Positions 3,918-63,400 of a DNA stretch of 64,000 nucleotides are shown one piece after another. Position numbers and translations under genes: made by a program. Positions within the stretch are counted from its first letter, which is position 1. Every line of letters begins with the position of its first letter. Source of the DNA: Forficula auricularia. Taxonomy: Eukaryota; Arthropoda; Insecta; Dermaptera; Forficulidae. The DNA is taken from positions 245,182 through 309,181 of the forward strand of contig JALMQS010000133.1 of NCBI GenBank assembly GCA_024734495.1, read 5' to 3'. The notes beneath the pieces are model-generated. The model did not search any database. It saw only the letters and a list, made by a program, of their open reading frames with translations, and was not told the DNA's origin.

Positions 3918-4343
3918 TTTTTTTGCAACGAAATTTTCTCTGGAGAGAGACGGACTGGTAGAAATTTTAATTGAAAGCAATGGAAGGCAGCCCAGAGGTA
4001 GTGAGGAAAGAAAAAATTAACACATATGAAATAAGGTGTAATTTATTGGAATCCTTCCTCCTTTCCTTTCAAACCGACGTTTCGGAGGATTTTTCCCTCC
4101 TTCTTCAGGGTTTCAAAGGGTCAATGAATGAAACAAATAAAATGTTTCCTTCTTCTCTCCACAGTAGTGTTCAAAAACTTTCTTCATTTGTAACAAAAGG
4201 CATAGAAAGACAATTTTTTTTTTATCCTTCTTTTCTTAATTAGATAGCCATCGATTCCAATAAATTACACCTTATTTCATATGTGTTAATTCTTTCTTTC
4301 CTCACTACCTCTGGGCTGCCTTCCATTACTTTCAATTAAAATT
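3918..4343. mobile_element. foldback element with hammerhead-like core, 13-bp target duplication
   Basis: Two inverted arms of about 90 bp (3964-4053 and 4253-4342) enclose a 200-bp middle. The element is flanked by the direct repeat ACTATTATGATAA at 3905-3917 and 4344-4356, a 13-bp target-site duplication. The left side carries about 46 bp (3918-3963) outside the arm that is absent on the right, so the element is asymmetric. Insertion splits the LINE ORF2. A hammerhead-like core lies at 4065-4119. It encodes no protein of note. The longer-than-transposon TSD points to a retroelement-type insertion. Confidence 0.75.
4065..4119 (-). ncRNA. hammerhead-ribozyme-like motif, best paired copy
   Basis: Read on the minus strand: an 11-nt helix I strand, CUGAAGA (consensus CUGANGA), one A, a five-pair helix II (GGAGG with CCUCC), then GAAAC, the palindrome ACGU, C at the position before cleavage, and an 11-nt partner strand for helix I. 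Helix I pairs 10 of 11, with one G-G mismatch. Helix III would be only the ACGU palindrome, so activity would need a dimer. The extra A between the core and helix II departs from the canonical consensus. Activity is not shown by sequence alone. Confidence 0.6.
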
Positions 4344-4356
4344 ACTATTATGATAA

Positions 4357-5760
4357 CATTATTAAAAAGCTTATTGAACCACATTCATCTGTTAAAAAAA
4401 ATGAAAAAAGATATGTTTCCACATAAATATATAATTCCAAGTATGAAAGATAAAAATAACACTATTCAATACAGTCAATCAAATATCTTAAAAATAATAA
4501 CAGAATTTTACAGAAATTTATATACATCTAATACAATTAATGACCAAATTGACATATCAAAATATATACCTGAAAATATCTCAGGTATTCTGGAATCTGA
4601 AGTATCAAATATAATTAGCAAGTTAAAAACAAATAAATCACCTGGAAGTGACGGTATTAAAATCGAAACTTTAAAATATGCCCAAGAAATAATTACAAAA
4701 CCACTCACTTTAATATTTAATAATATAATAAAATCTAGAATAATTCCTATCCAATGGAAACAATCAAATATTATCATTATGTTTAAAAAAGGTGATCGAA
4801 ACGATATTAACAATTATAGACCAATTACACTATCTTCTAACATAGGAAAAATATTTATGAAAATTTTGGAGAATAGATTAAAAAATATAATAAATTTTAA
4901 CCAACCGATCGAACAAGCTGGTTTTAGATCTGGATTTTCTACATGTGATCATTTACAAGTCATCAATCAATTGATAGAAAAAACTCGTGAATATCAAATA
5001 GATATATATTTAGCATTTCTTGATTACAGAAAGGCATTTGATACCATTGAACAAAGCTATATATTTAAGTCCATGCTCTCTCAGGGAATAAATCCAAATT
5101 ACGTTTCATTAATTCAAGAAATTTACTCAAATTCAGAAGCAAGAATAATTCTAGAAGAAAACGGGCCTTATTTTCCAATTAATAGAGGTGTTAAGCAAGG
5201 CGATCCGCTGTCACCGGCACTATTCAACTGTGCTCTTGAAGATATGTTCAAAAAATTAAATTGGACTAACAAAGGTATAAAAATAAACGGAGCATATCTA
5301 AATAATCTCTGGTTCGCCGACGATCTTGTTCTAATAGCAACTTCAAAAGACGAACTAAAAGAAATGATTAATGAAATTAATATAAAAAGCAAAGCACTTG
5401 GCTTAGAAATTAATTGTAAAAAGTCTGCATTTGTCTCAAACAGGGTAGAATCGGATATCGGTTTAGAAAACAACAAATCACATTTAGAATATAAATCTGA
5501 AATAATTTATTTGGGACAGATAATTAGCTTTGAAGGCAGAACAAGTAAAGAAGTTGCAAGAAGAGTTAACCTGGGTTGTAATAAATTTTGGTCATTAAAA
5601 TTCATCTTAAAAAACAAAAACATCGACCTAATCTCCAAAATAAAATTTTTTAAAGCATGTGTAATACCGGTCTTGATCTATGGAGCTCAAACATGGCCTA
5701 TTACGGAAAAGATAGCTAATAAACTAGAAGTAACACAAAGAGCCATGGTAAGGAGCATCC
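4357..5760 (+). pseudogene. LINE reverse transcriptase domain
   Basis: RNA-dependent DNA polymerase of the same LINE. Visible blocks in order: NKSPGSDGIKIETLKY (block 1), FKKGDRNDINNYRPITL (block 2), QAGFRSGFSTCDHL (block 3), FLDYRKAFDTIEQ (block 4, first Asp), GVKQGDPLSPALFNCALE (block 5), WFADDLVLIATS (block 6, FADD catalytic box), YLGQIISFEGRTSKEV (block 7). The open frame runs from 4350 into a MITE at 5764, and after it the reading continues at 6158. Catalytic residues are all present, but the element as a whole is broken, so I call it a pseudogene. Confidence 0.85.
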
Positions 5761-5763
5761 TTA

Positions 5764-6154
5764 GGCCCGGTTGTATGTCGCAAAGTAAATGCTTTTTACC
5801 ACTAACCAAGGTAGATGGTAAATGGAGCCACTGGAATGGACAATCAGATGACAGGCACATTCAGGGTCGGTTGTATGTCGCAAAGTAAATGCTTTTACCA
5901 CTAACAAACGGTAGATGGTAAATGGAGACACTGGGTTGGCCAATCAGATGACAGGCAATTTCAGTGCCTGTCATCTGATTGGCCATCCCAGTCTTTCCAT
6001 TTACCATCTACCGTTTGTTAGTGGTAAAAGCATTTACTTGCGACATACAACCGGCCCTCAGTGGCTGTCATCTGATTGGCCATCCCAGTGGCTCATTTAC
6101 CATCTACCTTGGTTAGTGGTAAAAAGCATTTACCTTGCGACATACAACCGGGCC
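5764..6154. mobile_element. Harbinger-type MITE with a second related MITE nested inside
   Basis: Terminal inverted repeats begin GGCCCGGTTGTATGTCG and end with the complement, and the flanks are TTA at 5761-5763 and 6155-6157. A 3-bp TWA target duplication is the signature of PIF/Harbinger elements. Inside, a second palindromic unit (about 5865-6058) starts GGTCGGTTGTATG and ends CATACAACCGGCC, flanked by TCAG on both sides, so one family member jumped into another. No transposase. The host is the LINE RT: SIL before and LNVRRKDK after rejoin in frame. Confidence 0.85.
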
Positions 6155-6157
6155 TTA

Positions 6158-8076: not shown

Positions 8077-8087
8077 AATTATAAAAA

Positions 8088-11000
8088 ATGTCAGAAAATT
8101 CACTTGCTACGAGATTGTGTAATAATTTAGTATTACGATTAAAAGCAGAACGGGATCTTGAAATTTATCGAAATAAATTTAAAATCACTTTTAATGAATT
8201 AAATGTATTTATTAAACAAATTTTCTTTGTATTAATTGTACAATTTTTAACTAAACACCGTTTTTTTTATTCTAGAAAGTGAAAACTCAATTTGCTGAAC
8301 ACTTTTTGGAAAATAAAGTAAACCTCGAAATTTTAGAGAAAATTAATTTACTAATTAATCAAAATGAATCTGAGGTAAAATAATTTTACTAATTTTTTGA
8401 ATATTTTATTTTTAAAACGCAAATGCCATTAGATATTTTAAATGATATAATAACCAATCCTATTTTGGATTTTGTGATATAATTAACATTTAAATTAAAA
8501 TAATTATTTCTTGAATTTCATCTTGAGCTTTCTCTATTTCTCTTCCTATTCTTCTGCTTCTCCCTTTTTCTTTCTCTGTTCTAAATCTTCCTTATTAAGC
8601 TTAAAAGTGTATTTTTGAGACTTAAGACTAATAACAATAAGTAAAAACTTTGTCTTGAGATACGGTTATCAGCGAATTTAATGTATTTCCAAGACCTAGT
8701 TAAGTATTTCCACCAATTCTTCCTTTCACTGTCTGTTTTGTTCCTCTAATAAAGTACTATTCCCTCTGAAAATACGGTATAATACAAGTATAGGTACCTA
8801 CATGTGTATATGTACATGATTTTTACATGCTTTATTATATTAGCTTCACCTATATGTATCTATTAATGTGACTTTTGTTCTGTTAAATTCCGCAAACATT
8901 TCTCTATAAAAATAATTGTTTACCTACTCAATTTAAATGAAATTATATAAAAATAAAAGGTCATGGGTGATTGAAAATACCAAAGGTGAAGAGGAAAGCG
9001 AAATTCAGGAGATGCTTAATGTTTGGAAGAGATACTGTGAGAATTTGTATTCGAACTCATCTCCCTCCCAATCCAAGATATGGGTGTACAGCCGATTGTG
9101 GTTGAACCTGACATTCTGCGGGATGAAGTTGTGATGGCTATAAATAAACTTAAAAGAACAAGGCGTGCTGATCGGATGGCATCCCATCAGAGCTGATTGA
9201 GGCTTCTGGGGAGCTCGGTATTGAGATGTTCCTTGGGATTTGCAGCAAGAAATGGATTACTCTACGTTGGCCGAGAGAATGGACAGACTCAGTCTTTATT
9301 CCGCTTCAAAAGAAGGGATCCAAAAAGAAATGTGACAATTATAGGCTTATTGCTTTAGTGTCACATGCTAGTAAGATTATGTTGCACATTCTACATTCAA
9401 GAATAAGGTCCTTCCTTGATGGCCAAATTCCTGAAGAACAAGCATGTTAAAGGGAAAGGAACACGTGAAGAAATCTTAAATCTAAGACAAATGATTGAAA
9501 AGTCACATGAATTTAATACACCGGTATTCCTCTGGTTCGTGGATTACCGAAAGGCTTTCGATACCTTCAAGTGGCCCCATCTATGGAAGATATTAGATGA
9601 AATGGGCTCCCGCAACAACTTGGGTCCCTCATCGAATCACTCTATGTCTCAAACACTGCGAAGGTTCAGTGTTAAAGCCGGTGTCCGTCAAGGATGTATA
9701 CTTTCTCCCATCCTTTTCAATATATATGGCGAATATGCCATGAGAAATGCTCTTGATGAATGGAACGGCGGATTTTCTGTTGGAGGACATAAAATTAACA
9801 ACTTGAGATATGCAGACGATACCACTTTGATTGCCAGCTCTATGGATGAACTAATGGAAATAGTAGAGAGGGTAGAAACTGCCAGCCAGGAGATAGGGCT
9901 TAAAATCAACCAAACAAAAACGAAGGTAATGATTATAGATCGCCAAAATAACAACCAACCGAATGTGACACACATTGCGGGGTGTGAGGTGGTCCCTAAA
10001 TTCGTTTATCTGGGTGCCGTCCTCTCAAATGATGGCCGTTGCAGTGATGAAATAAGAAGACGAATCCAACTATCCAAAAGTGCAATGTCCCGATTCACAA
10101 AAATATGGAAGGACAGACAAATCTCCAACAACACCAAGATGAGATTAGTCCAATCCCTAATTTTTCTATCTTTCTGTATGGAGCGGAGACTTGGACTATG
10201 CTGCAAAGGGACCGGGACCGGGTGCGCGCCTTCGAGATGTGGTGTTGGCGAAGGCTTCTTAGAATTCCTTGGACGGCCCGTCGTACGAATATTTCGATCC
10301 TTCGGGCACAAGGTGAATTCTAAGGATTTACCCTTTGACAACGTTTAAAAAGAGTTTACCAACCGACATACAACTGGCCCTAAGTGAGCTGGGAGTACAG
10401 GTGCGTCTGGATGATATTGTCTCTCACGAAATCCTCCGATACTTCGGGCATATAATGCGTCGAGAGAATACGCTAGAGAAGACCATTATAGAAGGAAAAG
10501 TCTCGAGGGTGTTTTCCATCAAGATGGATCGACCAGGTGACCAAACTAACTGGCAGTCCTCTGCGCGGCGTCGTCCCGGGGGCGCGTGACAGAAATAAGT
10601 GGCGCCTTACTGTGAACAGGGCCATATTACCACACACTGATCACGACGCCTCATTTATGAGGCATACGACTTAGAAGAATATAAGAATAATAAAAATAAA
10701 TACATTTCATTCTGTTAAATTCCGCAAACTTTTCTCTATAAAAATAATTAAAACTAAAAAGTAAAAAAATAAATTATATTTTAAAAAACTAAATTACATG
10801 CTTCTAAAAAGTATAAAATAATGTAATACTTAATCAAAAAGCGTGGGGCACTTTGTCGAAATTAATTAAAAGTTTCTGCACTCCACACTTTTTGATATAG
10901 GGCTATTACACACTGTCGACTAATCGCCGGCGACTGTGAATTTCTATAGTTTAAATAAGCGTTTGCGCACTTGGTTGCCGGTCTCGTCCTAAGGCCCATT

Positions 11001-14000
11001 ACGCACGCCGGCGACTTGGTCGACGGCGACTGTTACTTTCTATAGTTTAAATGCGTTATTTAACGGATTATAGTGGTGTTTCACAAAGTGGAAATAAAAT
11101 TAAAAAATTAAAAAATCCTTTAAATTATTTTGGAGATTTTTTTTTTATTTATCTCTATACATATTTCTGGCTATGAACCCTTCAAGAGATAAATAAAAAA
11201 GTAAATAAAATAAAAGTTGTAAGAGATAAATAAAAAAAAAATCTCCAAAATAATTTAAAAGATTTTTTAATTTTATTTCCACTTTGTGAAACACCACTAT
11301 AATCCGTTAAATAATTCCTGTGTTTAATATGTTTCACTATAAACAAACACCGCTTTCCTTAAACTTTGTTTAAATGAGTGTTTACGTACTTGGTTCCCGG
11401 TTGCGTCGTGCGTAAACACTCATTTAAACTATAGAAAGTCACAGTCGCCGGCGACCAGTCGACAGTGCGTAATAGGCCTAAGTATTAACATTATTTTGTA
11501 TTTTTTAGAAGCATGTTTTTTATTTTTTTTATTTTGTTTGTGGTCTGGATTCAGATACCCACGATAACTTAAGAACGAAAAGTCGTAGCAAGCTCCTTTT
11601 TGTGCCAAAACATTTATATTTCCAATGCGGAAAATTGATCCTATTTTGGACTTTCTAGCTTTAGAACTTCTGGTTTAAAAACTCAGTAAATATTTTTTGA
11701 ATGATTTTGTTGAGATTGTAAGACTCTGTTATTATATAGACATAAATATACAATTTATTTCATATTTAAGTTTATTGTTAATTACTTATAAGGCCGTCTC
11801 TAGAGTATATAAGTTTTCGCTTTTTTTATGATTTTAAAAATGTGTGGGGTTGAGCGATTCTTTCATTAGAATCTGATCAAGAAAAATTACTAAAAAGGGC
11901 GCGGATAGGATTATCTGTCTTCTTTTAGAGCTAAGTATTGCAAGAAAGCCAAATACAAGTCCAGACCTGTTTGACACTGAGATTAATGTCCTAGTTTACA
12001 CGGAGCGGAATTTCCACCTCGGTAAAAACACGATGAAATCATTCGCTTTCCGCCCATCCGGGCACACTGGGCAGAATAATAGGGTCCACTACTCCAGTCT
12101 GTCGCTCAGTGGAATTTTCCGCCCTATATGGGCAGCTTCATTTAAAAGCATTGCTTGCATACAAAGCCAAAAATTCTGCCCCGTATGAACTTAAAGACTT
12201 AATTTCTATTATTCTAGGAACGGCCTTTAACGCTAAGTAATATCAAATCGAAATGAATATCAGATTTAGATATTTTTCATTTAAAATGATTTATTTAAAG
12301 AAAATGTAAACAGCGTTCCGAGTCTTGAAAAAAGTTTCCCCTTTTCCTTCAATTTATTATATATCAATATTATTTTATTTTAATTTATTTTTTTGTTTTA
12401 GAAAACTGATTTTGTCGAAATATTATCAGAAATTAGACAAGAAAATAGGATTCTAAAGAATGAAATTACAGCCACTAAAGAAAAAGTATGAACTCAAATA
12501 AAATTATTTATTAAAATATAAAATTGACCATTTGTAAAGCATCTTTTTTTCCCTTTAGACCGAATTATTATATAATGAAATTCAACACTTAAGAAGAGAA
12601 TCAAAATATCCCATTGATCCAACGAACACATCATTAAACATCACAAAAGAGGTAGTTATTTTTGAGATTCTTTATAAAATAATCTTAATATTTTCTACTT
12701 TAAAATTTTTTATAGTTAAATTTTAATCTTGTTTTTCCTTTTCTCTTCTGCAACTCTTACATATTTCCCACCCCTCTCTTCAGAATCATCATCATATTGA
12801 GTATACTGTCCTAAGACTGGTTTGATGCAACAATCCGTCTCCACTCGACTCTGTCCCCCGCCAGCTGATTGACCTCTCTAAATGTCTTGCATCCCATATC
12901 CCCAATTATTTGGTTGAAATATTCTAATCTGGGTCTTCCCCTTCCCTTTTCTTTCCCACCTCCCCCTCCAAGATATCCCTAAGCAGTCCCCCATGTCTCA
13001 GTGTGTGCCCCATCATCTGACCTCTTCTCTTCTTCAGACTCTTCCACAGGGTTCTTCTTTCTCCGATTCTTCCAAGAACTTCTTCATTTGTAATTTTATC
13101 CATCCATTTGATATTCATCATTCTTCTGTAGCACCACATTTCGAAAGCCTCTAATCTCTTTCTCTCCGCTTCTCTAATTGTCCAGGTTTCACACCCGTAC
13201 ATGGCTATGCTCCATACATATGTCTTCAATAGCAACTTCCTGTTTTCTAAGCTGATTGAGGAGGAGCATAGTAGTTTTTGCTTTGAATTAAACCCCATTT
13301 TTGCTTGGGCAATTCTTGATTTAATTTCGTTTTCGCTCCTCCCATCCCATGTTATTTTACTTCCTAGGTAGCGGAATTCCTTAACTCCTTCTAGGTTTTC
13401 TTGGTTAATTTTGATGCATTCCTGTCTCGTTTGTTCTTTTTTGTACATACTAGGACCTTGGTTTTATTCTTGTTTATTTTCATTTTGATTTCTTCTATTA
13501 GGATTTGGTTAATTCCATTCAAGGCGTCCTCTAATTCTTTTTTATTGCTTCCTAGAAGGGCAATGTCATCGGCAAATCTTAACATCTTTTGACCTTGGAT
13601 TTCGATACCTTCAGAATAAATCTTTATTATACAGGGTGATTCATCGGTCTGTCCTCTCTTTATAACTCTTATAACTCTTTAATTTTAAGTCAGAGATAAA
13701 AACTCTTCACATATAATTTATATGATATGTTATTGTCTATCTACGTACTATATGCATTTGTATATAGGTGCTCCGTTTAAGTGCAACATATAGCTTTATA
13801 TTTCTTAATGGAACACCCTATATATATTTATTTATTTTGATAATAAATAGATTCCCTTTAAAAAAGTATAGAGTAATAAGGCGTCTAAAAAAAAAACTTC
13901 TTAATTTATCATTTTAGACCCCTTATTACTTTATACTTTTTTAAAGGAATCTAATTTACTATCAAAATAAATAAATAGATATAGGGTGTTCCATTAAGAA

Positions 14001-22023: not shown

Positions 22024-22659
22024 GTTGCATATTCTCGGGATTTGTAATGTGGTGGTTTCCCGTTGCCTTCCACATGTTGAAGAGAAGAAAAATGAAAAAG
22101 GAAATCAACTCCTAGCCCTCGAAAACCTAATAGCGTCGGAGTCGGTAAAAAAAAAAAACAAGAGTTGGCCAAGGGAGGCCGTATAGGAGAGAGAAAAAGA
22201 GAAGCCTGACACAAGTAAGTGGAAGCAATGTCAGACTTAGCTCGGATAACCCCGTGGTCGCAATCCACGTACTCATCAGAAATGAGTTCCTGAGGTTACT
22301 TTAATTAAGAAAAAGATCAATTAAGATGAAATTTGTCGAGGTCCAGACCTAGCCAAATCGTTTTCTCATCCTCAAAACTTGTTAATAGAGTTGGTTTCAT
22401 CAAAATCGGTAGAGCCGTTTTCAAAATAGAACTAAGATACAAATATATATATAAATATTAGGGTGGGTCAAAAAAATCCACTATTTTTTTTTTACAAGTG
22501 ACACGGAAAAATGGGTTGCTAGACACCTCAAAAAACTCTTTCTAAATATGAGCTCCCAATTTTAATAAGAAGATCCCTCGCATCGCAGTTTTCCACTCCT
22601 TTCTCAGTCCAACAGAAAAAAATTCATACCTCATCACTAACTGATTGTACAGAAAATGA

Positions 22660-22895
22660 TATATCTATATATATATATATATATATATTATTTATTTGTT
22701 TGAGACTATAGTTTCGAAGACTTGGTCTTCATCATCAGTCTTTTTAATTATAAATGTTGTTTTTCATGGAGTCAATATCGTATGGATATTGAAAATTTGA
22801 TGTTCCTTCTTCACTGGTGGTCAGCTTAGAACTACTAGTCTCAAACAAATAAATAATATATATATACAGATATATCATCTCGATATATATGTGTG
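22660..22895. mobile_element. foldback element with CUGAUGA-type core
   Basis: Arms start TATTATTTATTTGTTTGAGAC and are inverted at 22840-22862. The left arm carries an intact hammerhead-like core on the minus strand; the right arm carries an eroded version (CTGGTGGTCAGC...). Long TA microsatellites form the outer ends. Confidence 0.65.
22697..22738 (-). ncRNA. hammerhead-like core with canonical CUGAUGA
   Basis: Minus strand: CUGAUGA, one U, a perfect six-pair helix II (GAAGAC, loop CAA, GUCUUC), GAAAC, then UAUAGUC. ACUAUAGU is a palindrome ending in GU followed by C, so helix III would again be short or dimeric and C the residue before cleavage. Helix I pairing is weak (two pairs). As in the other copies, one extra base separates the core from helix II. 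Confidence 0.55.
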
Positions 22896-27989: not shown

Positions 27990-30900
27990 ATGTCTGATAA
28001 AAAAGTAGAAGGTATGTCTAAATTAAGATACAAATTTCTTAAGAATTATTTTGATTATTTATGTCTATCGATTAAATTAATAAGTTGTTGTAGGAAATAA
28101 GAACAATAGCTTATGCAAATAATTTTTATTTTTTGCCAACGTTTCGTCAACTTTGTTGACTTCCTCAGGGCTCAAACAAATTAACTTCTTTCCATATTTG
28201 TCATTTTATCAATATCAATAATATAATATGAATTTGTCATTTTATCAATATCAATAATATAATATGAATTTGTCATTTTATCAATATCAATAACAATGTG
28301 AATATTGATAAGATGACAAATATGCAAAGAAGTTTGTTTGAGCCCTGAGGAAGTCAACAAAGTTAAAGAAACGTTGGTAAAAAATAAAAATTATTTGCTT
28401 AAGCTATTGTCCTTATTTCCCTACAACACTTTATTATTTTACTTAAGAATGTTTTCTTAATACAATTTCTTCTTTTTTTTAGAAACCTCAACTGAATCTG
28501 ACAAGAATAAAAAACAACCCTCGGCCTCGACAAGTAAACTTGAGAATTATGTTAAAAATATTTTACCAAAACAACAGTTCTCAACATACCAAGAAGAAAT
28601 AAAAAAAGTGATTAAATGTATATTTTTTAACAAGTGGGCTCTGAATCATAGTCGTTTCCGGGAAACATGTCGTTAATCTGTTTTTATGTGATATTTAGAT
28701 GACTTATCAAAACACTATGTAAATTGCTCACAAATTAAAATGAACCACTTACAAAAAGTCAGATTTTTTATTTGTAATTAATTGTTCGACTTGTCAGTGG
28801 CGTAGTGAACATAACAATCTTATATTTATACTCATAAAACTATCTATAAACTATGTATGTATTGTAACTATGTATTTTTGGCCAATTTGAATTACGCATG
28901 TTCTGTCTTACACTTTCGGTTAAAATTGTTGCATTGCTCACAAACGCTCGCCGAATTGTTGTGTAAATATATATATTGTCTTTCTTATGATATACTAGTA
29001 TAGCATTAAATTAAACTTTAATTCGCATCTAAATATCTAAAATAAAACAAATTCGCTCCTAAAAAGACTATGATATTCTCAGATACCTCAAATGCCCAGA
29101 AATTGTAACTTAAGTTTCGAAATTTATGGGAGGGGTTCCGCACTCTTACCTTTTTTGCTAAATTAAAGGCTTTTATCTTTGTTGATGAAAAAATTGCCAT
29201 TTTATTCAAACTTTTTTTGAAGTAGGTAGTAAGTGGTTTCGGTTAATCATCTAATTTACAGAAACAGCTTACTTCTATTTATTAGTTTAGTCATTATATT
29301 TGTGTAAAATTATTTCTAAAAAATAACATTTTTATATTTATTGTATTTAAAAATACTATTTCTAAAATCTAGACAAGGATAGAAGGCCAATTTTAGTAGA
29401 TATACTATATCGTCGCCTTAGAGTGTAAACCTGCTAAATCCATTTTATATCATATATGACATATTAATACCGTTCGAAAGAAAAGAGATGCAGTATCGAC
29501 CAAGTAAACTTCTACTTAAAATTACGATCATACCTAAGTTGTAGAAAAAAAAAATGGGAAAAATTGTTTCTTTCCATAACAACATTGTAAAATTTCCTTG
29601 TTGTGAGTTAGCTGGGTTTACAGTCTAAGGGCCAGTTGTATGTCGCAAAGTAAATGCTTTTACCACTAACACAGGGTAGATAGTAAATGGAGAGATTGGG
29701 ATGCCCAATCAGATGTCAGGCACTGTCATTTACTTTGCGGCATACAACCGGACCTAAGGCGACGAAATGTTTGTTTATATGTGACTCACAAAGGGCGGAA
29801 CCCTTCTGACATAAAAACAAACATATTTATATATCTATTAAAATAAAATCGGCCTTCTTTCCTTCCTTGTCTAGATTTTAAAATCAATAATGTGGCGATA
29901 TAATATATTGATTACTTCAGTGAGATGTTTTACAATTTTGAAAATTTTTATCTATTATCATAAAATTTAAACCATTATTAAAAATACTACTTTTTTTTTA
30001 CAGCGATTTCCATTACATAAAAATGTTATGCTGAAAATAAATAGAGAAAAGCCTCCACGAGAAATACGCAATTTCTTAACAGCACGTGAACGACGTTCAC
30101 TGGGATTTTATAAATTGCCTAAAAGTGGAATGACTTTTCGAGATTTCCTTCCAATGAATCAGCTTTGGAATGATTATGCGACAAAATTTCTACAAGTTAA
30201 TACTTGGGAAGAAACAGGGTAATTATAAATTGTATAAGAATTCTTAAAATATATACAAAATGCTATTTGTTATTATAAAAAATTAGTACCATTAAAGTAA
30301 TAACCTTTATTTAGTTTGCTTATTTTTAATTAAAAAGGGTTTGATTGGTTGTCTATTAGTTTGACTTAATTATATATTATATTCTATATTCATGTTAGTT
30401 GTTCAAATATGGATCATATACTATCGAAATTTACAATGTTTTTGGGGAAAAGTATATTTTAATTAACCAAATCCTAATAGAAGAAATCAAAATGAAAATA
30501 AACAAGAATAAAACCAAGGTCCTAGTATGTACAAAAAAGAACAAACGAGACAGGAATGCATCAAAATTAACCAAGAAAACCTAGAAGGAGTTAAGGAATT
30601 CCGCTACCTAGGAAGTAAAATAACATGGGATGGGAGAAGCGAAAACGAAATTAAATCAAGAATTGCCCAAGCAAAAATGGGGTTTAATTCAAAACAAAAA
30701 CTACTATGCTCCTCCTCAATCAGCTTAGAAAACAGGAAGTTGCTATTGAAGACAAATGTATGGAGCATAGCCATGTACGGGTGTGAAACCTGGACAATTA
30801 GAAAAGCGGAGAGAAGAGGCTTTCGAAATGTGGTGCTACAGAAGAATGATGAATATCAAATGGATGGATAAAATTACAAATGAAGTTCTTGGAAGAATCG

Positions 30901-33900
30901 GAGAAAAAAGAACCTTGTGGAAGAGTCTGAAGAAAAGAAATATTTCAACCAAATAATTGGGGATATGGGATGCCAGACATTTAGAGAGGTCCAAACAGCT
31001 GGCGGGGGACAGAGTCGAGTGGAGACGGATTGTTGTATCAAACCAGTCTTAGGACTGTATACTCAATGATGATGATGATGATGATATTTTTAAAACAGTA
31101 AAAAATAACGTAATTGCCCTGACCACTAAAAAGTGGAGAAATTCAATTACATTCTTAAGGACTTGTTTTCAAGATGTTCCTTTTAACCCCTTCACCTTCG
31201 AAAGATGACCCTCCAAAATAGAAAGGCTGTTCTTCCGTTTCTCAAAATTAAATAAATTGAAATTTCACAGGGAGATAGGTCTCTGCTTAAAGGTCTATTT
31301 ACATCAACAGTGTCGCGACCGTGAGGTGACCGGCCCGTGATCTCACAGTGATTTCGATTCACACAAACCAGTGGCGTGACCGGCGCCAGTCACTATTTTC
31401 TCTCAATGTTTATACTAGTTGGTTGCTAAATATGAGGAAATTCTCAGAAAATCTTCTTCTTCTTCATCCAACGCCCGTCCGTGGCTGGTCGGCCATTAGA
31501 CGCCGTGTTGCCCAATAAAGCCTTGCCCGTCCCTCTTAAGTTGTCGTCGACCACCTCTAGGGCACCTCATCTCTCTGGGGTCTAATGTAACTCGCCTCCT
31601 CGCGGTGCACCCTGGTTAATGCAAAATGACTTACACCTCTACGCCTCCAACTGTGCAACAGAAATTGCATCCGGAATTTATAATAGGCACAGTTATTGAC
31701 ATAGCCTCGAACGTCAAAACTTTACATGAAATGGAGGCATAGGACAAACTAGAGGCTGTTCAGATTGATGCGTGGCTCAATGAAAACCATTTTTGAGTAG
31801 CCACGGCATACAATCCACCCATGAACACGTTTGAACACCTGATCTTGGAGCAGGCCATTACGGACAAGACAATTCTCAGAAAATGATTTCCTAATGATTG
31901 TTCTTGTTCTGGATGAAGAGGAGAACTCACAAGTTATAAAACGTTTCATCAGGCGTGGAAAAAAAGAAAAACGATGAAGGAGAATTCGCTACTCTTTACA
32001 AGGAATTGATGAACGACGGAGCGAAATTCATTTAAATTCAGTGTCCTTTGTTTTGCCAGATCGTATAGTAGCATAGGATATAAGCGCACCAATTCGATGT
32101 TTTTTTCGTCATTTATAATATTTTACACAGAAAAGAAAAGTACGATAGGAACACGGCCGTGAAATAATAAAAATATCGGCGAGGACTAACCTGACTTTCA
32201 CTGTGGGGCCACGGTGGGAGCACTGACTGCACTATCATCACGGTACGGCACCTGTAGAGTGGAAACAGCCCTATCTAAAATGCCTGGAAGATTTTTTTTT
32301 TAATTCGGCTGTTGGAGCACGTGCCTGTCACGTCACTGTTGAGTGTAAATAGACCTTATAAGGGTTTGTGATTTTCTGAAGACTTGAACTTTTTATGACT
32401 GGCCCGCTAAAAAGAGCCTCTAATTTTTTATTTAACCAAAAGCTCAATAAAATAAATTTTTTAAGAAAGCCCTCACTTAAAAGGGTATGTGAATTAATGG
32501 TGACTTGAAAAAGGGGGAACTTTTTTGAAAAATAATAATTTCAACTTCTTAAATACTCAGAAAATTAAAATATTTTTTTTTATTATTATGTTAAGACTAA
32601 CTTGATAATTGTACTAGATGAAAGTGAGAAGTATCAGCCAAAAGATGGAATCACTGGGCTCAATAAAACACCTTTAATAAGACGTTTTCGGCCTCGAATT
32701 TTATTTGACCATCTTCAGTCAGTTAGGAGTTATACACAAAATGCGATACACATATGGAACGAACCAAGCCTTGTCAAAAATAAAAAATTTTTTAGCTTCA
32801 AATTTTATTTTTAACAAGGCTTGGTTCGATCACATATGTGCACCGCATTTTGTGTATAACTCCTAATTGACTGAAGATTGCCAAATAAAATTCAGGCCGA
32901 AACGTCTTATTAAAGGTGTTTTATTGAACCCAGTGATTCCATCTTTGGCTGATACCTCCTCCTTCATCTAGTACAGTTTCATCACAGCCACGAACTCTAA
33001 CAATAACTTGATAATTAATTATAAATTTTTCATTTTTTCATACATAGGTTTAAAGGTGACCGAGCGACAGACGTTTGAACCAAATTGCTACAAATGTTTT
33101 CAAAACCGATTTACATGGATCTAGAGTAAGCAAACAAAATAACAAAAATTATCATCAATCGTTTTAAATAAAATTATCAAGATTTTGATTTACATTTTTT
33201 CAAAAATCATTCCTAATATTCAAAATGCCACAATATATCAAGTTTGTTTCTATTTTACTTTTTATTTCTAACGATCTTTCTCACTCTCCCAAATATTTTG
33301 AAAAATTTTAAAAATATTTAAGAAGTAAAAATTGTATAAACCAACTTGATATGATATATTATTTGCATGGTATTATGAATGATCTTTTAAAAAATTAATT
33401 TGGCCTTTTTGATTTTCTGGATATTTGTGTGAAGACGTTTCGTCGAAGACAATTTGTATTAAAATAAACCGGCCACATGCGAGTTGGACCTCATTCTGAA
33501 GACCCCATACCTACCTTATAACTTCCAAAATAATTGAGATATCAAATTTGTTTTTTATTTATTGTTGATAACGAGACAATGATGGAATTTGTGGATTTTT
33601 TAAAGCTAATTCTAAACGCTGACATATACATTAATTACCTTAAACGTTGAGACTTTTTCACATCATTTCAAAGCGAAATAAATTTAAAAAAAATTAAAAC
33701 TACTTCTACTTAAACAGGGATTCTTCACACACCAAAAATATTTTTTATTTTTGACCTTATCTAAAATAAGCATTCGATTAAAATTTTAATACGAATACAA
33801 CGGGGAAAATGAATACATATACGTTGTAAATTTCAAGTTTGTATATTTACTTTACAATACACTGTCAGACGGATAGATAAAAAGACATTGTAGCGACACT

Positions 33901-37225: not shown

Positions 37226-37539
37226 GTATAGATCTATTTAGATTTGATCTTTTCATTCGAAGGCGTCTCAACAGTCTTTTGCCACCTGACTATCCCTTCC
37301 ACAACTTTTATTATTGCCTTTCGTTTTAATATTCCTTTACACATATTAAAATCTATAGCTAGGTGCAGACTGATTATATATATCTATTCTTATTGCCACT
37401 CTCAGCACATGGCGGGTAGAAGTAATAAATATAATTGTAAAGAAAAAAATGTTATTGATTGTTTAATAAATTACAAAAATACAAATCTTTTATAAAAAAA
37501 ACACTCTAGAACACGTTTATTTAAAAAACAAAAAAAAAC

Positions 37540-37573
37540 AATCGTTTCGGGAGAATATCTCCCTTTTTCAATG
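37540..37573 (-). ncRNA. hammerhead-like core, decayed, left arm
   Basis: Minus strand: UUGAAAA replaces CUGANGA; helix II GGGAG with CUCCC is perfect; GAAACGAUUG follows. The core is probably dead. Confidence 0.35.
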
Positions 37574-37857
37574 GATAAAATGTGCGAAAAAAGAAAAAAA
37601 TGTTACTTTCTAAAATTTGAAAGTAATACTAAGATATTAAATATTTTTATAAATAGACAATTGTACATGTTGTCTTGGTGACCAGATTACATTTAATTAA
37701 AATATAAATATTTATGAAAAAAGTTATTTTTCTCTAAAAATTTTTTATAAACATTCGAAAACAATCCATATCTGACCTTTTAATTAATCGAATTTTTGTT
37801 ATATAAAATTTCGATCATTGCTAAGATTTTTTTTAAAGAAAAATAACTTTTCATAAA

Positions 37858-38033
37858 GCGGGGTCGGATAGGCTAGTGTGCGGGCGTATCATCCCGTTAC
37901 ATTCAGTAGACCCGGGTTCGAATCCGACTGAAGCATTCGGATAAAATCTGACCCCCGGCAGGAATAAATTTAAATAAAATAAATAGTATCGTAAATGGGC
38001 TTATGGCTAGAAAGGCCGTAAAGCCAAAAAAAA
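37858..38033 (+). mobile_element. tRNA-derived SINE, copy 2
   Basis: B box GGTTCGAATCC at about 37915, A-box-like ATAGGCTAGTGTG at about 37868, the same 3' body as copy 1 and a poly-A end. Target duplication about CTTCATAAA/CTTTTCATAAA on both sides. Confidence 0.85.
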
Positions 38034-38184
38034 CTTCATAAATATTTATATTTTAATTATAGGTAATCTAGTCCCCAAGATAATATCTACAATTGTCTAT
38101 TTATAAAAATATTTATATATCTTAGTGTTGCTCTCAAATCTCAGAGAAAAGCAAATTTTTTTTCTTTTTTCGCAAATTTTATCC

Positions 38185-38220
38185 ATTGAAAAAGGGAGAA
38201 ATTCTTCCGAAACGTTTGGT
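38185..38220 (+). ncRNA. hammerhead-like core, decayed, right arm
   Basis: Plus strand: UUGAAAA, helix II GGGAG/CUUCC with A and U loop, GAAACGUUUGG. Partner of the left-arm core. Confidence 0.35.
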
Positions 38221-38396
38221 TTTTTAAATAAACGTGTTCCGGATTGTTTCTTTATAAAAGATTCGTATTCTTATAGAGTTAAGAATGATTATTTTCAACC
38301 ATTTATTTCTTTCTCTCTTACCTGCGTTGATTATAATACTCGCTTAACTCCTACTACTCCAATTATATTATCGAAACAAAGAATCTAATACCTTTT

Positions 38397-49649: not shown

Positions 49650-50590
49650 AATAGATATGTTTATATTGCATGTCTTCTCCCTCGGGAGTCGAACCCAAGC
49701 ACTAGTACGCTTTTCAACTAGTTGCCCGGAAAGCGTACTAGTGCTTGTAGTCCAAGAGCTGGTGACACATTTTGACTACGGATTTGACCCAACTAGAAAT
49801 AATGCGTAATAGTACCGTCTATGATAGTTGTACAGGGAATGGCCAGTTTGGCTGGCTGTAGCAGGTGGACCAGGTAGGTGTGAGTGCGGTAAAAAATACA
49901 TATGTGTTAAAAAATATTTTTGACCCACAATGAAATTATAAAAATTATAATTTATAGTCAATTATAAACATAATATATTCACTCCAGACCATTTGAGTGG
50001 TGGAACGTGGAACCAGACCACCCAAAGTGTATTTTTACAACATGAAAAAAAACATTTGATGCTATTTTTTCATGTTGTAAAAATACACTTTGGGGCGGTC
50101 TGGTTCCACGTTCCACCACTCAAATGGTCTGCAGTGAATATATTATGTTTATAATTGACTATAAATTATAATTTTTATAATTTCATTGTGGGCCAAAATA
50201 TTTTTTAACACATATGTATTTTTTACCGCACTCACACCATGCGCAGTACCTGGTCCACCTGCTACAGCCAGCCAGACTGGCCATTCCCTGTACAACTATC
50301 ATAGACGGTACGATTACGCATTATTTCTAGTTGGGTCAAATCCGTAGTTAAAATGTGTCACTAGCTCTTGGACTATTGGGTTCGACTCCCGAGGGGACAA
50401 GACCCTCCTACATGCAATATAAACATATCTATTGACTAGTTGCCTGGACAACATAGTAGTGCTTGGGTTAGACTCCCGAGGGGACAAGGCCCTCTTACAT
50501 GCAATATAAACAAATCTATCGACTAGTTGCCCGGAAAGCGTACTAGTGCTTGGGTTCGACCCTCTACATGCAATATAAACATATCTATTA
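49650..50590. repeat. long foldback built from tRNA-like units
   Basis: Arms about 49650-50050 and 50070-50440 with few differences. Both outer parts contain a Pol III B-box-like GGGTTCGACTCCC (minus-strand on the left). On the right the unit GACTAGTTGCC ... GTGCTTGGGTTCGACTCCC ... ATGCAATATAAAC is repeated about three times (50388-50590, about 80 bp each). I read it as two SINE-like bodies in inverted orientation. Confidence 0.75.
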
Positions 50591-52023: not shown

Positions 52024-52400
52024 TAATAGAATCTTCTTTTACTTTTAAACCAAACCCTAATAAATAAAAAAATTAGAAGTCTCCTTCATTACCTTATTTA
52101 AATAATAATTTCATCCTTATTAACTCATTATTATCTTTTCTAGACACTTTTTACGAAATATGAAAATTATTTAAAAAAAAAAATAATAATAATATTTTGA
52201 CATCATTATTAAAACTATCTTTATACGTATTGGGAAAAATACAGATAATATTAATATTTGTAGAAATCTAATTAATATATATTATTATTATTAATCTTTA
52301 TATCCAAAATTGTTTTATTTAAGCTAAAGTGGTTTCGTGTCCACGGAAAATTTTCACAGCAATGTGGACAAAAATTAAAAAAGATAATCAATTGTAGTAA

Positions 52401-52432
52401 GACGTTTCGTTTCTTTATTTCGACTTCTTCAA
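52401..52432 (-). ncRNA. decayed hammerhead-like core in copy B
   Basis: Minus strand: UUGAAGA, A, GUCGAAAUAAAGAAAC, GAAACGUC. One base (C to U) from the CUGANGA box; helix II poor. Sister of 35166-35199. Confidence 0.35.
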
Positions 52433-53018
52433 CAACAACAACTCCAATTTGAATATCTATTCACTATAAAAGTAAATCAATTTGATGGATACATTTTGGA
52501 GGGCGAACTGGAAAGAAAACGAGAAGACCTAGATTAAAGTATTTTTCCTAGTAAATGAAAGCTAAAGGAAGTGGACTTTTAGAAAAGTGAAAGCGTTGGC
52601 AAGGGATTGAGTTAATTGGAGGCGGGTGGTTGCGTCAAACCAGTCTTAGGACTCGATGATGATGAAAATTCGAAATATATCCTTAAATTTATTAGTTCCA
52701 ATTTGTAGTAAGTGAGAACCCATATTTATTTTACTTTTCCCTGAGAATATTCTTGATCCGTTTAAGACCAAAAATAGATATTCTTAAGATTTATTTTTTA
52801 ATATTAAATTGAAATGATTATTGGTTATCAAATGACATAAATAAATGTATCTCTATCAAATTAATTTACTTTTTATACTGATTGGAAATTGAATGGAGTT
52901 GCTATAAATAAGTCGCAATAAATTAACGAAACATCCTACTTCACTTGAGTGTCTAATTTAACTTTTGTCCACATCACCACATCTCTATGAAAAGCTAGAG
53001 CTTATATTTAAGTTTAAC

Positions 53019-53589: not shown

Positions 53590-54340
53590 TTAGATCTTTA
53601 TTTGTAATTTAATTTAATTAATCTTAAGAAATTCAAAGAGAAATTCAAAGATGTTTTTTATAAAGCGAAATTTAGAGAATACTTAGCGAGACTACCGTTT
53701 TATAAGAACCATTGAGGTCCAGCTGATTCTCCATCCTGAACCAAGAGAGCGAAAAAAGATATGGTCCATCTAGATGTTACCCGGTATCAATCCGCGTATA
53801 GCCCGCATGATACCCCACCCCGGACCACCCAGAGGGACATGGCATCTCAAGTTCTTATATATTACTCTCTCGATTCAGACGCCTTTTACAAGTCTATTCT
53901 TACATAGAGAGATGATACAAATTAATTTAGAATTCCGCGGAGTAAAAGGCGTCTGAATCGAGAGAGTAATATATAAGAACTTGAGATGCCATGTCCCTCT
54001 GGGTGGTCCGGGGTGGGGTATCATGCGGGCTATACCGGGTAACATCTAGATGGACCATATCTTTTTTCGCTCTCTTGGTTCAGGATGGAGAATCAGCTGG
54101 ACCTCAATGGTTCTTATAAAACGGTAGTCTCGCTAAGTATTCTCTAAATTTCGCTTTATAAAAAACATCTTTGAATTTCTCTTTGAATTTCTTAAGATTA
54201 ATTTAATTAATTTGATAATTTTCTATATTTGTATAAATATACTAGAAAAACAAATTTACTTATAATTTGTTAAAAATTCCGTTGAGTGGATTTGCTCGCG
54301 AGTTTACTCCGCGGAATTCTAAATTAATCTTTATTTGTAA
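53590..54340. repeat. long nearly identical foldback insertion
   Basis: Arms 53606-53890 and 53942-54215 are identical by eye apart from a deletion of about 12 bp in the right arm. AATTCCGCGGAGTAAA in the loop is inverted near 54308, and ATCTTTATTTGTAA flanks the whole at 53594 and 54327, a likely target duplication. Absent from copy A. No gene. Confidence 0.85.
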
Positions 54341-54482: not shown

Positions 54483-54653
54483 TTTTTTTTTTAACCAATT
54501 TTAAAGGCGGTTATCTTGTATATATTCATTTAATTAAAAAATTATTTATTTTTCTTATTTTTAATTTTTATACAAATTGAATATTATCAATTATAATTTG
54601 AAAGTTTATATTAGGAAAATAAGGACAAGTTTTATGTGTGACTTTTTATTTAT

Positions 54654-54692
54654 ACCAACGTTTCGTCGACTTTGCCGACTTCTTCAGGGCTT
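54654..54692 (-). ncRNA. hammerhead-like core, left arm
   Basis: Minus strand: GCC, CUGAAGA, A, GUCGGC loop AAA GUCGAC (six pairs with one G-U), GAAACGUUGGU. GCC pairs with GGU as helix I. ACGU is palindromic. Confidence 0.55.
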
Positions 54693-55065
54693 CTATAATT
54701 ATAAGAACATTCTTGATATTAATTTACAAAAGTACAGTCAGAATCCAAAAACAAACATGTATCAATAGTTTACCTACCAAATAGTCATGTCACACATTCG
54801 TTTAAATTTTCTTCTCACCTTCGTTACCATTGAAGGCCATCAGAATACAATTTTCAAAGATATTTGGCGCATTCACAAAAAATACAAATGCGCCAAATAT
54901 CTTTTTGAAAATTGTATTCTGATGGCCTTCAATGGTAACGAAGGTGAGAAGAAAATTTAAACGAATGTGTGATATGACTATTTGCAGGTAAACTATTGAT
55001 ACATGTTTGTTTTTGATTCTGACTGTACTTTTGTAAATTAATATCAAGAATGTTCTTATAATTAT

Positions 55066-55108
55066 AGAAGCCCTGAAGAAGTCGGCAAAGTCGACGAAAC
55101 GTTGGTGG
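55066..55108 (+). ncRNA. hammerhead-like core, right arm
   Basis: Plus strand, same core: CUGAAGA at 55073-55079, helix II 55081-55095, GAAAC at 55096-55100, then GUUGGU. All conserved boxes intact. Confidence 0.55.
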
Positions 55109-55329
55109 ATAAATAAAAAAGTCACACATAAAAACTTGTCCTTATTTTCCCAATATTATCAATTATGTTTATCCAAGTCATTTTGTTCTAATAAAAAAAA
55201 AAAATAGTTACCAGTCATTTTTATTGAATTACCCAATTCTTACTACTAGTACAGGCCGACACAGAAAAACGTGAACTTTTGGCAAACAAATAAAAATAGA
55301 ATACAAGCAACAACAAAAAATTCAATTGC

Positions 55330-56475
55330 CAGTGCCCCAGCCAAATTTAATTCGAGCGGGGGTGTGTGTGCACTGCCAGACTACCCTTCACAAGAAATAA
55401 CTCTGGTTCTATTTTGACGCCTCTGTAACTTCGTGCTGGAAACCTCTACATGACTGAAATTTTTTCTACAATACTGGTCCACAAGCTTAACTAAATTAAA
55501 AAATTTCATATTTATATTTTTTATACCGTCCAAGTTACAAGAAGCCAAAGATAGGCTTTTTCGTCACTCACTCACTCATCAAAATTCTAAACTACTTCCG
55601 CTGATCCCAGAATGCTGAAATTTGCCATGCTGGTAGAGTTTGGGGTACAAATCGAAATCGAAAAACTGAAACTTTCCCTTCTTTAGCATCTAAAATGAAG
55701 GAGTGAAACTTATAAGCTAAATTAAATAATAATGAAAATTCAATGACACTATAAAATGCTAAAATTTGTAATAACTTAAATCACTAATAAAGTGAGAAAT
55801 CGAAAAAGATCTTCATCATCCCTTTAAAATAAAGGGGTGAATCTTGCAGGATAGATTCCCATCCAAATTACAAAAAGAAGTGAAATCTCAACAAAAACAC
55901 TTGTGTAAAAAAAGGCCAAGTTCGATTAATAGAAATCGTTTGTCAAAAATAGTAGTGAGATCTAATGTGCTGCCAAGTTCAACATCATCACTTTATTAAA
56001 TGGGTCAAGAATATAGTAATTTCAATTAAAACGCATGTTTTTCATTTCACATGTCCATCTATATTTATTTATTTCACATTTTTAGTAGAAATTATTTTCC
56101 TAAAACTTGGCTTTTACGCAATGTTATGTATGTCATAAATTATCTTACTATGGTAACATAATTCGTGAGATCATAATAAGAGAGGATGGAATGGCTAAAA
56201 CGGAGAGGTGGACACCCTATCAAACAATAATAATAATAATAATAATTTAATGCGTAAAAGCCAAGTTTTAGGAAAATAATTTCAACTAAAAATGTGAAAC
56301 CAATAAATATAGATGGACATGTAAAATGAAAAACAAAATTGAAATTACTATATTCTTGACCCATTTAATAAAGTGATGAAGTTGAACTTGGTAACACATT
56401 ATAGATCTCACTACCTCATTTGGCAAACGATTTTTATTAATCGAACTTGGCCTTTTTTACCCATGTGTTTTGCTT
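55330..56475. mobile_element. insertion in copy B with inverted arms
   Basis: Copy A passes directly from the equivalent of 55325 to 56475. Inside, arms about 55895-56120 and 56250-56470 are complementary (TTCGATTAATAGAAATCG, CTAAAACTTGGCTTTTACGC), with an AAT microsatellite at 56228-56247. CACTCACTCACTCATC at about 55565 recurs at 58396. Origin unknown. Confidence 0.7.
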
Positions 56476-56544
56476 GAGATTGAATTTTGTCTTCAATTCT
56501 ATGTTTCTATTCATCCAGTGTCCTTGGGCGAGTCTTGTGGACCT

Positions 56545-60469: not shown

Positions 60470-60650
60470 ATAGTGTAGTTATTGGTGAAACATATTGAAA
60501 TAAAGTAAAGAAAAGTTAAAAATATAAAATTCTAAGTAGGTTTCACAAAAATTAAAGAAAATGTGAACATCTGAAGATGGGTTTGTACCCCGAAATATAT
60601 ATAGAGTAATGCTAACAATCATCTTATCTTTAATTTTTGTGAAACCAATA
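60470..60650 (+). mobile_element. Penelope-terminus-like inverted element with core, copy B
   Basis: GGTTTCACAAAAATTAAAGA at 60539 is inverted at 60626-60645. The loop carries CUGAAGA at 60571-60577, U, GGGU loop UUGU ACCC, C, GAAA at 60592-60595 and the palindromic AUAUAUAU. Better kept than its copy A partner at 38690-38880. Confidence 0.6.
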
Positions 60651-60720
60651 TAATTTGTCTACAGAGATGGTCAACTACTAGATCCCAGATGTTGTCGATT
60701 ATTTTCAATATGCTCACTCT

Positions 60721-60767
60721 ATGAACTCCTGAAGATGCGCTCGTACCCCGAAATATATATAGAGTCA
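60721..60767 (+). ncRNA. hammerhead-like core before the GST 3' end, copy B
   Basis: ACUC (60725-60728), CUGAAGA (60729-60735), helix II region with CGC and GUACCCC, GAAA (60750-60753), palindrome AUAUAUAU, A, then GAGU (60762-60765) pairing with ACUC. Helix II is imperfect. Sister of the core at 39063. Confidence 0.5.
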
Positions 60768-61455: not shown

Positions 61456-61854
61456 CTAAAAAATATATATAAATGAATCAAATCAATAAGTTCAAGATTG
61501 GCTATTAGATTTTTGGGAGGTGGAGGTACAGTTTTTAGAGAAAGATATTTAAATGATATTCAAGGAATCTAATAGATTTTGTGATTAAAAAAAAACAAAA
61601 CATTATTCTAATTTGTATTTTAATATTTAGTTAAGAAATTTTATTAAGTCAATAAAATTGTATATTTTTCAAAATTTCATGATGAATTTGAATACGCGTT
61701 TATTTTTATATCTCAGATAACGAATTTTTCTTCTTATCTTTAAAACATTTTAATGATTTGAGTACCAAAATGTATTCAATAGTTTTTAAGGAATTTGGTG
61801 TTGGTACTTGGTGAAACATTTTTAAAAATTATTGGATAAATAAAAATAATTTTA

Positions 61855-62565
61855 AAGAAAAAAATAAAAACCGACTTCAAAAAATTAAATGCAATAAATA
61901 AAATGCACTAAAAGGTATAAAATAATTATTATCCTATTTAGTTACAACTAAACGACGAAATATTAACATGAAATTACTTTTTGAAGTCGGTACCAAACAA
62001 ACTATACCTATAAACGACCGTACCAACCAAACGTACTAAGTAAGATACGTCGAGTGCGATTCATAAAAGGCATCTGTTTGGCACCGACTTAAAAAAGTAA
62101 TTTCATGTTAATATTTCTTCGTTTAGTTGTAACTAAATAAGATAATAATTATTTTATACCTTTTAGTGTATTTTATTTGTTGCATTTAATTTTTTGAAGT
62201 CGGTTTTTATTTTTTTCTTAAAAATTATTTTTATTTTTCTCTTTTTAGTGATCATATCATCAGAACTTGACCAAATTAATATGACACCATCCCTAAGACA
62301 CCCCTTTCGGATAAAAAAAGAACCATCGAAATCGGTTCATAAACAAAGAGGTTAGGTCTAAACAAACCTAATAAAAAAGGTCTAATACCTATGAAAAAAG
62401 CGAAAAAAATGGGACCAATCGGAAGATAGACTGGACCCAATGCAAAAAAAATTTTCAAAATCGGTTGACAATTGGCGGAGATATGAGGTAACATAGGCAC
62501 AAAAAAAAAAAAATTCACTCGAATAGAGAACTTCCCCCTTTTTTGAAGTCGGTTAAAAATACTTG
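61855..62565. repeat. inverted CCGACTTCAAAAA repeat
   Basis: AACCGACTTCAAAAAATTAA at 61870 is inverted at 62195-62210; arms about 61855-62000 and 62080-62225. A third CCGACTTC complement closes it at 62543-62556. Related to 38397-38610. Confidence 0.7.
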
Positions 62566-62569
62566 GTAG

Positions 62570-63400
62570 GTTTCACATTAAGATATAAAAAATAAAACGA
62601 ATTTTTGGAGAATCTTTAATCTCGATATATTATATTTATTTCGGGTGACTAACGCATGTTCAGGAGAAACAGAAAGTAACTGACCTGGATAAGTCGAATT
62701 TGAATACAAGTCAATGGTAAAATTTATTTTTAAGATAACAAAAGGGTAAATATTTAAAATTAGTGGAGGGAGAAAGGTAGGAAGTCTATTTTGTTTAATT
62801 TTGAATGGCCTTCTGAGAAATGAGGATTAACATCAGGTAGGTGTAGGGGGGGGGGGAAGGAAGAATTAATGAAAACAAATTTGCAAATATTTAAAGAATG
62901 TAATCAATGATTGTACTTTTCTTAACTTCTAATTCATTATTTAGTATATTCGTTTTATTTGAGAGAGCTAATTTTATTTCCGTTGACTCTAAAAAATCTA
63001 AACGCAAGCCCTCTTTCTTTCGAAATGTAACGAAACGAGAGGTGGCTAATAGAAGAGATGTGTTTATTCAAATGTAGATGATTGGCGAAGGTAGAAGTAG
63101 ATTCCATATTAATATCATCTGATCTGCTAAGACTATTAAAGGCTCTTTCATGTTCCGAGTAGCGAGTTCTAAAAGAGCGTCCAGTTTGTCCTATGTAGAT
63201 TGCGTCGCAATTATCACAAGTCAATTTATATACACCTGATTTATCTAATTTGTCAATTTTGTCTAATTTATTATTAATTAGTTGTGAACCTAAAGTGTTT
63301 TTATTATATAAAGCAGGAGTTAAACCAGATGTTCTAAGAGTTGAAGCTATAGGGTTTGTAACGTGGTTCGAAATGAATGGGAGTCTTTAAATATTTTATC
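62570..63400 (-). mobile_element. Penelope-like element, 3' part with GIY-YIG endonuclease
   Basis: Minus-strand frame from about 63390 to a stop near 62952. Upstream of the listed frame it reads LPFISNHVTNPIASTLRTSG, then KSGVYKLTCDNCDAIYIGQT (Cys-x2-Cys plus GVY and YIG, the GIY-YIG nuclease signature) and GRSFRTRYSEHERAF (catalytic-region Arg and a conserved RYSEH). The order, a Cys pair between the two parts of GIY-YIG, is typical of Penelope-like C-termini. The RT domain is absent: the frame is lost before 63400. The 3' untranslated part carries a core-like motif at 62636-62668 and ends near TGTGAAACCTACC. Confidence 0.85.
62636..62668 (-). ncRNA. hammerhead-like motif at the Penelope-like 3' end
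   Basis: Minus strand: CUGAACA (G8 changed to C), UGCGUUAGUCACCC, GAAAUAAAUAUA. Same layout as the motifs at 39063 and 60729. The G8 change should abolish catalysis in this copy. Confidence 0.45.

Follow-up and report, generated by a model that had tools for sequence, protein, structure and literature searches.

Minimal variants of the hammerhead ribozyme were reportedly described in Penelope-like elements (PLEs) by Cervera and De la Pena in 2014 and by Lunse, Weinberg and Breaker in 2017. In the present study we compare with such systems a window of 64,000 nucleotides from Forficula auricularia (contig JALMQS010000133.1, positions 245,182 to 309,181), an AT-rich stretch of a 1.06-Gb genome in 845 contigs, in which hammerhead-like cores lie in inverted repeats (foldbacks) and in other copies. 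PLE hammerheads reside in pseudo-long terminal repeats (pseudo-LTRs), have a type I core with little or no stem III, and have been proposed to form dimers (PMC6155905, PMC6466107). Poseidon of Anolis carolinensis encodes a reverse transcriptase (RT) and a GIY-YIG endonuclease and carries a hammerhead near the start of its open reading frame (ORF); two reverse-transcription start sites give its tail, and in vitro its protein cleaves and extends both target strands, the later insertion steps being not yet validated (PMC11167929). The Penelope elements of Adineta vaga occur as head-to-head inverted pseudo-LTRs with an optional tail on one of them and short target duplications; which template was used could not be decided in that rotifer study, whose authors favour self-priming (PMC3846280). 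Published work thus already covers hammerheads in PLEs, inverted pseudo-LTRs and the presence of a tail on one such repeat (PMC6155905, PMC3846280, PMC11167929).

The window cores resemble these minimal hammerheads in having a type I core in pseudo-LTRs with stem III reduced or absent. They differ in that every strong core bears one extra A or U after A9 and in that the paired copies of one family, F1, are inverted and not in tandem. We regard the cores as probable minimal type I hammerheads of PLE pseudo-LTRs, and the foldbacks as probable products of a one-event insertion reverse-transcribed on both target strands. The sequences show the core, the covarying helix II, the extra A or U and the place of the F1 ribozyme relative to the endonuclease frame and the 3' end. 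What is added here is the extra base and the counts of foldbacks and tails; unlike tails had been noted in words only, and within the accessible literature on PLE insertion mechanism and PLE hammerhead dimers no count of tail pairing was found. The extra base may already have been described in earlier PLE-hammerhead papers.

The motifs in the window are real. The pattern CTGANGA-N8-30-GAAA matched 17 times against 3.6 expected, a number reached in 0 of 100 shuffles, and a strict descriptor (exact core, one unpaired nucleotide and at least four Watson-Crick pairs abutting GAAA) found five sites, at 4108 (-), 22738 (-), 28168 (-), 54687 (-) and 55073 (+), compared with a mean of 0.03 per window and a maximum of 1 in 60 dinucleotide shuffles. 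When the unpaired nucleotide was omitted, the descriptor found no site in the window. An earlier note on this DNA had listed 17 positions as cores with CUGANGA or one base off and with helix II paired throughout. The hammerhead-like cores and the inverted repeats stand, but several of the 17 cores are damaged, and they fall into several families which cannot be aligned as one element. The heptamer is exact at 11 positions, one base off at two (52401, 62636) and two bases off at the other four (35166, 37540, 38185, 38793). Scored for five possible helix II pairs following one unpaired base, seven positions have all five, including 37540 and 38185 with their UUGAAAA cores, and the remaining positions have two to four each; an exact core and five pairs coincide at five positions (4065, 22697, 28133, 54654, 55066). 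The covariance model built from the five strong cores recovered six window sites at E<1e-8, namely its own five and 28341, and even at E<=10 gave no match to the cores at 32.7-32.9, 38.8-39.1, 60.6-60.7 and 62.6 kb. Elsewhere in the genome, copies belonging to the 32 kb family and to the 60 kb type retain a paired helix II. Over the window and 20 further loci the model gave 53 matches at E<=0.01, of which six are in the window, 27 are F1 copies in the loci and 20 lie in locus flanks, about one per 10 kb; at this flank density the genomic total might be on the order of 100,000 cores, a guess from a sample of PLE neighbourhoods. A pattern scan of viral contigs gave eight loci, the best with 21 bits by the model, which were set aside as probable chance matches.

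Each core is predicted to be a minimal type I hammerhead lacking a closed stem III: GAA is followed only by a palindrome (ACGU, ACUAUAGU or AUAUAUAU), the short ones have no loop, and none forms a closed stem. The earlier supposition of a reduced stem III is thus borne out, the described PLE variants likewise being without it, and these palindromes would permit cleavage as a dimer, although F1 showed no pair in direct tandem within the stretches examined. The claimed covariation of helix II is also upheld. In the alignment of five rows 95% of the cells are paired, both sides change at four of the five helix II positions, and the covariation score was equalled by none of 500 shuffles; in 23 distinct rows, aligned by fitting to the covariance model and hence biased towards it, helix II is paired in 95.5% of the cells. 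Stem I pairing is good in F1, F1b and F2 and weak in F3. When 12 stretches were folded singly, three (54 kb F1, F1b, F2) had a minimum-energy structure in which both stem I and stem II surround an open core.

In all five strong window cores the extra A or U follows A9 and precedes helix II. A descriptor independent of the model, run on 194 kb elsewhere in the genome with F1 masked, gave 20 hits (17 distinct), 12 of the sites being listed a second time one pair further in; every hit has exactly one extra base (10 A, 10 U) and none has zero. At 69% A+T, 17 of 17 A or U would arise by chance with a probability of ~0.002 if hits were independent, but related families are not independent. The minus arm of L030, an F1 copy, is an exception with G at this position. 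According to a 2023 paper, known hammerhead alignments allow insertions beside CUGAnGA of at most one or two nucleotides (PMC10085705), and a single extra base therefore falls within the variation already known. The plus-strand hammerhead of chrysanthemum chlorotic mottle viroid, a viroid ribozyme and not a retroelement, likewise has one unpaired A between A9 and G10.1; in that ribozyme the additional A10 is tolerated and U10 raises the rate, while C10 or G10 does great harm (PMC3705267).

The link to Penelope suggested earlier is supported by F1. At least 40 places in the genome carry near-identical copies of this family, at 99-100% identity (40 scored out of 696 candidates); the 39 outside the window fall in 34 loci, all of which were examined. 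A long copy, L018, contains an RT frame (RVT_1, 1.1e-8) and a GIY-YIG frame (1.7e-4), with the hammerhead beginning 458 nt past the latter, and F1 is accordingly classed, on its encoded domains, as a putative PLE. Coding evidence of this kind, RT with GIY-YIG in L018 and a GIY-YIG fragment in the window, covers only F1 and the 62.9 kb element, and the RT frame had no relatives in the PDB at E<=0.01. F1 ends either ~70 nt past GAAACG, at TTTCAAATTATA (short end), or ~100 nt past it, inside the likely ORF start ATGGACGGAAATGATAATAAT (long end); these two 3' end positions and the inverted 3' ends correspond to a PLE pseudo-LTR with an optional 3' tail. F1 is like Poseidon in its RT, its GIY-YIG domain and the position of its hammerhead near the ORF start, and its two ends and proposed insertion are comparable, whereas the Poseidon cut lies 26 bp inside the ORF and the F1 core ~90 nt ahead of the likely start codon (PMC11167929). 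F1b, at 28 kb, can be aligned with the F1 reference only from -3 to +47 around the core (82-84%; 83 bp at 76% in a looser comparison), so the ribozyme is the main feature common to both. Animal retrozymes, small tandem elements spreading as circular RNAs, would be another source of such cores, to which the F4 copies of at most ~265 nt and the tandem F5 cores would conform. This origin we regard as very improbable, for F1 encodes RT and GIY-YIG, no direct tandem was seen among its 33 distinct loci (13 of those stretches being only 2-3.6 kb), and retrozymes carry canonical type I hammerheads in tandem repeats whereas PLEs carry minimal variants (PMC7229834).

The inverted repeats reported earlier at 28.1-28.4, 32.6-33.0, 37.5-38.3 and 54.6-55.2 kb do exist, but the idea of a single dispersed family of foldback elements is not supported: judged from sequence, foldbacks result from insertions by two families or more, whose single copies carry the same ribozyme, and form no separate element family. 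Among the 33 F1 loci (L050 was dropped as a repeat of the L049 insertion), 16 are two-tailed head-to-head pairs of 5'-truncated copies with their 3' tails outward (L018-L021, L024, L027, L028, L030, L035, L049, L051-L055, L061); the others are 16 single copies and one inverted copy without a second tail (L029). L049 and L050 are one insertion with identical flanks on two contigs, either a duplicated segment or a haplotig. Direct repeats of at least 11 bp in the outer flanks, some consisting of simple A+T sequence, were found at 12 of the 16 two-tailed loci and at nine of 14 single loci (L057 and L058 run off their stretch), as against a rate of 2.2% among 930 mismatched flank pairs. The left arm of L019 consists of 58 nt of tail and lacks the ribozyme, yet a single 12-bp duplication encloses the whole insertion. 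The window F1 foldback is bordered by a 15-bp duplication, AATATTATCAATTAT, at 54580-54594 and 55152-55166, and its paralogous site at 36057-36071 (two mismatches) is empty. One long and one short tail are combined in 15 of the 16 two-tailed pairs (p 0.0003 at even odds), or in 15 of 17 when the window copy, which has no long end, is counted (p 0.0012 at even odds); L027 has two short tails, and the long end of L035 is partly masked. Single F1 copies are short-ended in ten cases and long-ended in six. F4 has 42 genome matches, of which the best 12 were examined; two of these, L037 and L038, repeat the window insertion, so that 11 distinct loci remain, with seven two-ended (six long and short by eye, L044 unclear) and four singles, all long. 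L037 (C760) and window 32.6-33.0 kb are also one insertion with identical flanks on two contigs, again a duplicated segment or a haplotig. F1 resembles Adineta vaga Penelope in its head-to-head inverted ends, its tails and its short target duplications; in Adineta vaga, however, copies are few and duplications measure 8-10 bp (PMC3846280), against 11-17 bp in F1. Such lengths, the varied 5' truncation of F1 arms that have only their 3' tails in common, and the occurrence of single copies make it extremely improbable that the foldbacks are non-autonomous DNA transposons similar to miniature inverted-repeat transposable elements (MITEs) containing the motif by chance, although the window also has long palindromes free of hammerheads and F6 is without a clear duplication.

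We propose that a foldback would arise in one insertion event in which both target strands are opened. Each target 3' end would prime reverse transcription on an RNA tail, starting at either of two sites; the resulting pair of 5'-truncated cDNAs would then be joined in head-to-head orientation, with a duplication of ~11-17 bp left by the staggered cut. Double-sided target-primed reverse transcription of this kind fits the single duplication of these loci, the outward direction of their tails, and the differences in truncation and in tail type between arms, and it agrees with the Anolis protein, which in vitro cleaves and extends both strands (PMC11167929). The missing stem III might be completed by two RNAs pairing via the short palindrome, or by binding of the element protein. 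Only tentatively do we go further and suggest, as a possible extension, that foldback PLEs record such events, often with one RNA or sister RNAs as template, that the first cDNA covers the nearer start and so forces staggered starts, hence one long and one short tail, and that the hammerhead, having A or U at position 10 and lacking a tandem partner, acts between RNAs or with protein and does not free tandem monomers.

The templates were compared in 14 arm pairs, with the window copy included and L019, L061 and L021 left out (one arm of L021 has no core). Four pairs are identical over the compared region (L018, L024, L028, L049), the others differ at 1 to 24 sites, and seven share non-majority variants between arms; same-source and different-source pairs both seem to occur. 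Identical arms and shared variants would also be expected if one cDNA or antisense RNA folded back on itself and was then copied, as proposed for Adineta vaga Penelope (PMC3846280). A copied arm cannot have a longer tail than its template, however, so that the 15 long and short pairs would need the short arm always to be the copy; the arms of L020 differ at 24 sites and diverge from the family by 8.4% and 1.5%, those of L027 differ at ten sites, and the L018 junction joins -305 to -1872 rather than a single point. We therefore hold self-priming to be unlikely. The idea of a head start, with the short-tail arm longer, was true in 10 of 15 discordant pairs and was dropped. Clusters of T>C confined to one arm were seen in L027 at 4670-4921 (minus; nine T>C and two A>G, the other arm having none) and in L052 at 629-1320 (minus arm; seven T>C among ten changes); they look like A-to-I editing of cDNA or antisense RNA.

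Of 48 truncation points, not one falls 5 nt or less from the predicted cut, and the inserted copies would therefore come from RNA uncut at the ribozyme, in agreement with the Anolis element. That every inserted arm spanning the site derives from uncut RNA would also suit a hairpin that has ceased to be a ribozyme and serves the PLE as a protein-binding signal, as would the Anolis ribozyme, which is inactive without protein and dispensable for insertion in vitro (PMC11167929). We find this quite doubtful, given that the catalytic core letters are kept along with the covarying helix II and that all 20 hits have A or U as the extra base.

Double-sided insertion of ribozyme-bearing PLEs has to be weighed against several results that do not favour it. 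Nine of the 12 minimum-energy folds lack the hammerhead shape, 55 kb F1 and F3 pairing otherwise, and in the 23 rows stem I is paired in 76.5% of the cells, two of its three pairs failing in seven and nine rows. The Rfam hammerhead models, recommended earlier as a check, gave no match to the window cores, and permissive searches returned other families only, mostly miRNA-type hairpins; these misses may be due to the missing stem III and the extra base. In L018 the GIY-YIG score of 22.3 bits is just below the Pfam cut-off of 22.6, and RT and endonuclease overlap in two different frames. Four of the 16 two-tailed loci have no repeat of 11 bp, the four identical arm pairs are those expected from copy-back, and the Anolis start sites in vitro are alike between strands, so discordant tails are not predicted (PMC11167929).

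Table 1. Predicted hammerhead, foldback and PLE features of the window (window positions).
Feature	Position	Strand	Description	Basis
F1 foldback insertion, 557 bp	54595..55151		two head-to-head 5'-truncated PLE 3' ends	inverted repeat
F1 hammerhead core	54653..54691	-	extra A; helix II GUCGGC/GUCGAC	strict descriptor, model
F1 hammerhead core, second arm	55069..55107	+		strict descriptor, model
F1b foldback	28073..28441		369-bp inverted repeat	
F1b hammerhead core	28134..28172	-	helix II GUCAAC/GUUGAC	strict descriptor, covariation, model
F1b core, helix II 3' strand damaged	28341..28379	+		model
F2 hammerhead core	4072..4112	-	predicted fold: stem I ~10 pairs and stem II	
F3 hammerhead core	22700..22742	-	extra U; ACUAUAGU palindrome	strict descriptor, model
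F4 foldback	32607..32978		cores 32677-32722 (-) and 32867-32910 (+)	inverted repeat
F6 foldback	37472..38275		cores 37537-37575 (-) and 38182-38220 (+)	inverted repeat
F5 cores 60571 and 60729	60567..60765	+	direct tandem, 158 nt apart	
F5-type core, G8 -> C	62639..62663	-	~290 nt past PLE endonuclease frame	
PLE GIY-YIG endonuclease fragment	62955..63386	-		Pfam GIY-YIG, E 0.0027, 18.4 bits
F7 arm, degenerate core at 52401	52351..52496	-		model E 1.4

The other families are represented more sparsely in our data. The F2 core is present identically in L022 and the F3 core recurs in L024; the F2 stretch gave no match as a genome query, which is uninformative because the search skips common words and the F2 core does exist in L022. 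F4 copies elsewhere in the genome have helix II GGCC/GGCC. The F6 cores have U3 and A8 with helix II paired (model E 0.57 and 0.01), possibly a compensatory swap of the C3-G8 pair; the F6 paralogous site near 59690 is empty, and no clear target duplication was found at F6. A core pair resembling the F5 tandem lies at 38793/39063. The endonuclease fragment scores below the same 22.6-bit cut-off and has 11 relatives, the best 77% identical and one with PF01541. F7 has a paralogue at 35117-35262, with the core position 35166. Window 34.4-40.4 kb and 50.8-62.0 kb form a segmental duplication that has diverged, with several insertions distinguishing its copies, hence the empty sites within the window. 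Palindromes with no strong hammerhead match occur at 5763-6155, 10898-11480, 13628-14162, 23187-23769, 49748-50375, 53606-54213, 55884-56481 and 61835-62239, and non-LTR-like RT/endonuclease frames and a Mos1-type transposase fragment at 4290-5888 (+), 19043-22104 (-) and 46398-46811 (+).

Hammerheads with the extra A or U lie outside the Rfam models used, and similar ones may escape routine annotation. A family that is both young and abundant, and whose two-tailed insertions are clean, makes it possible to test how PLE insertion is completed and why these elements bear a weak ribozyme.

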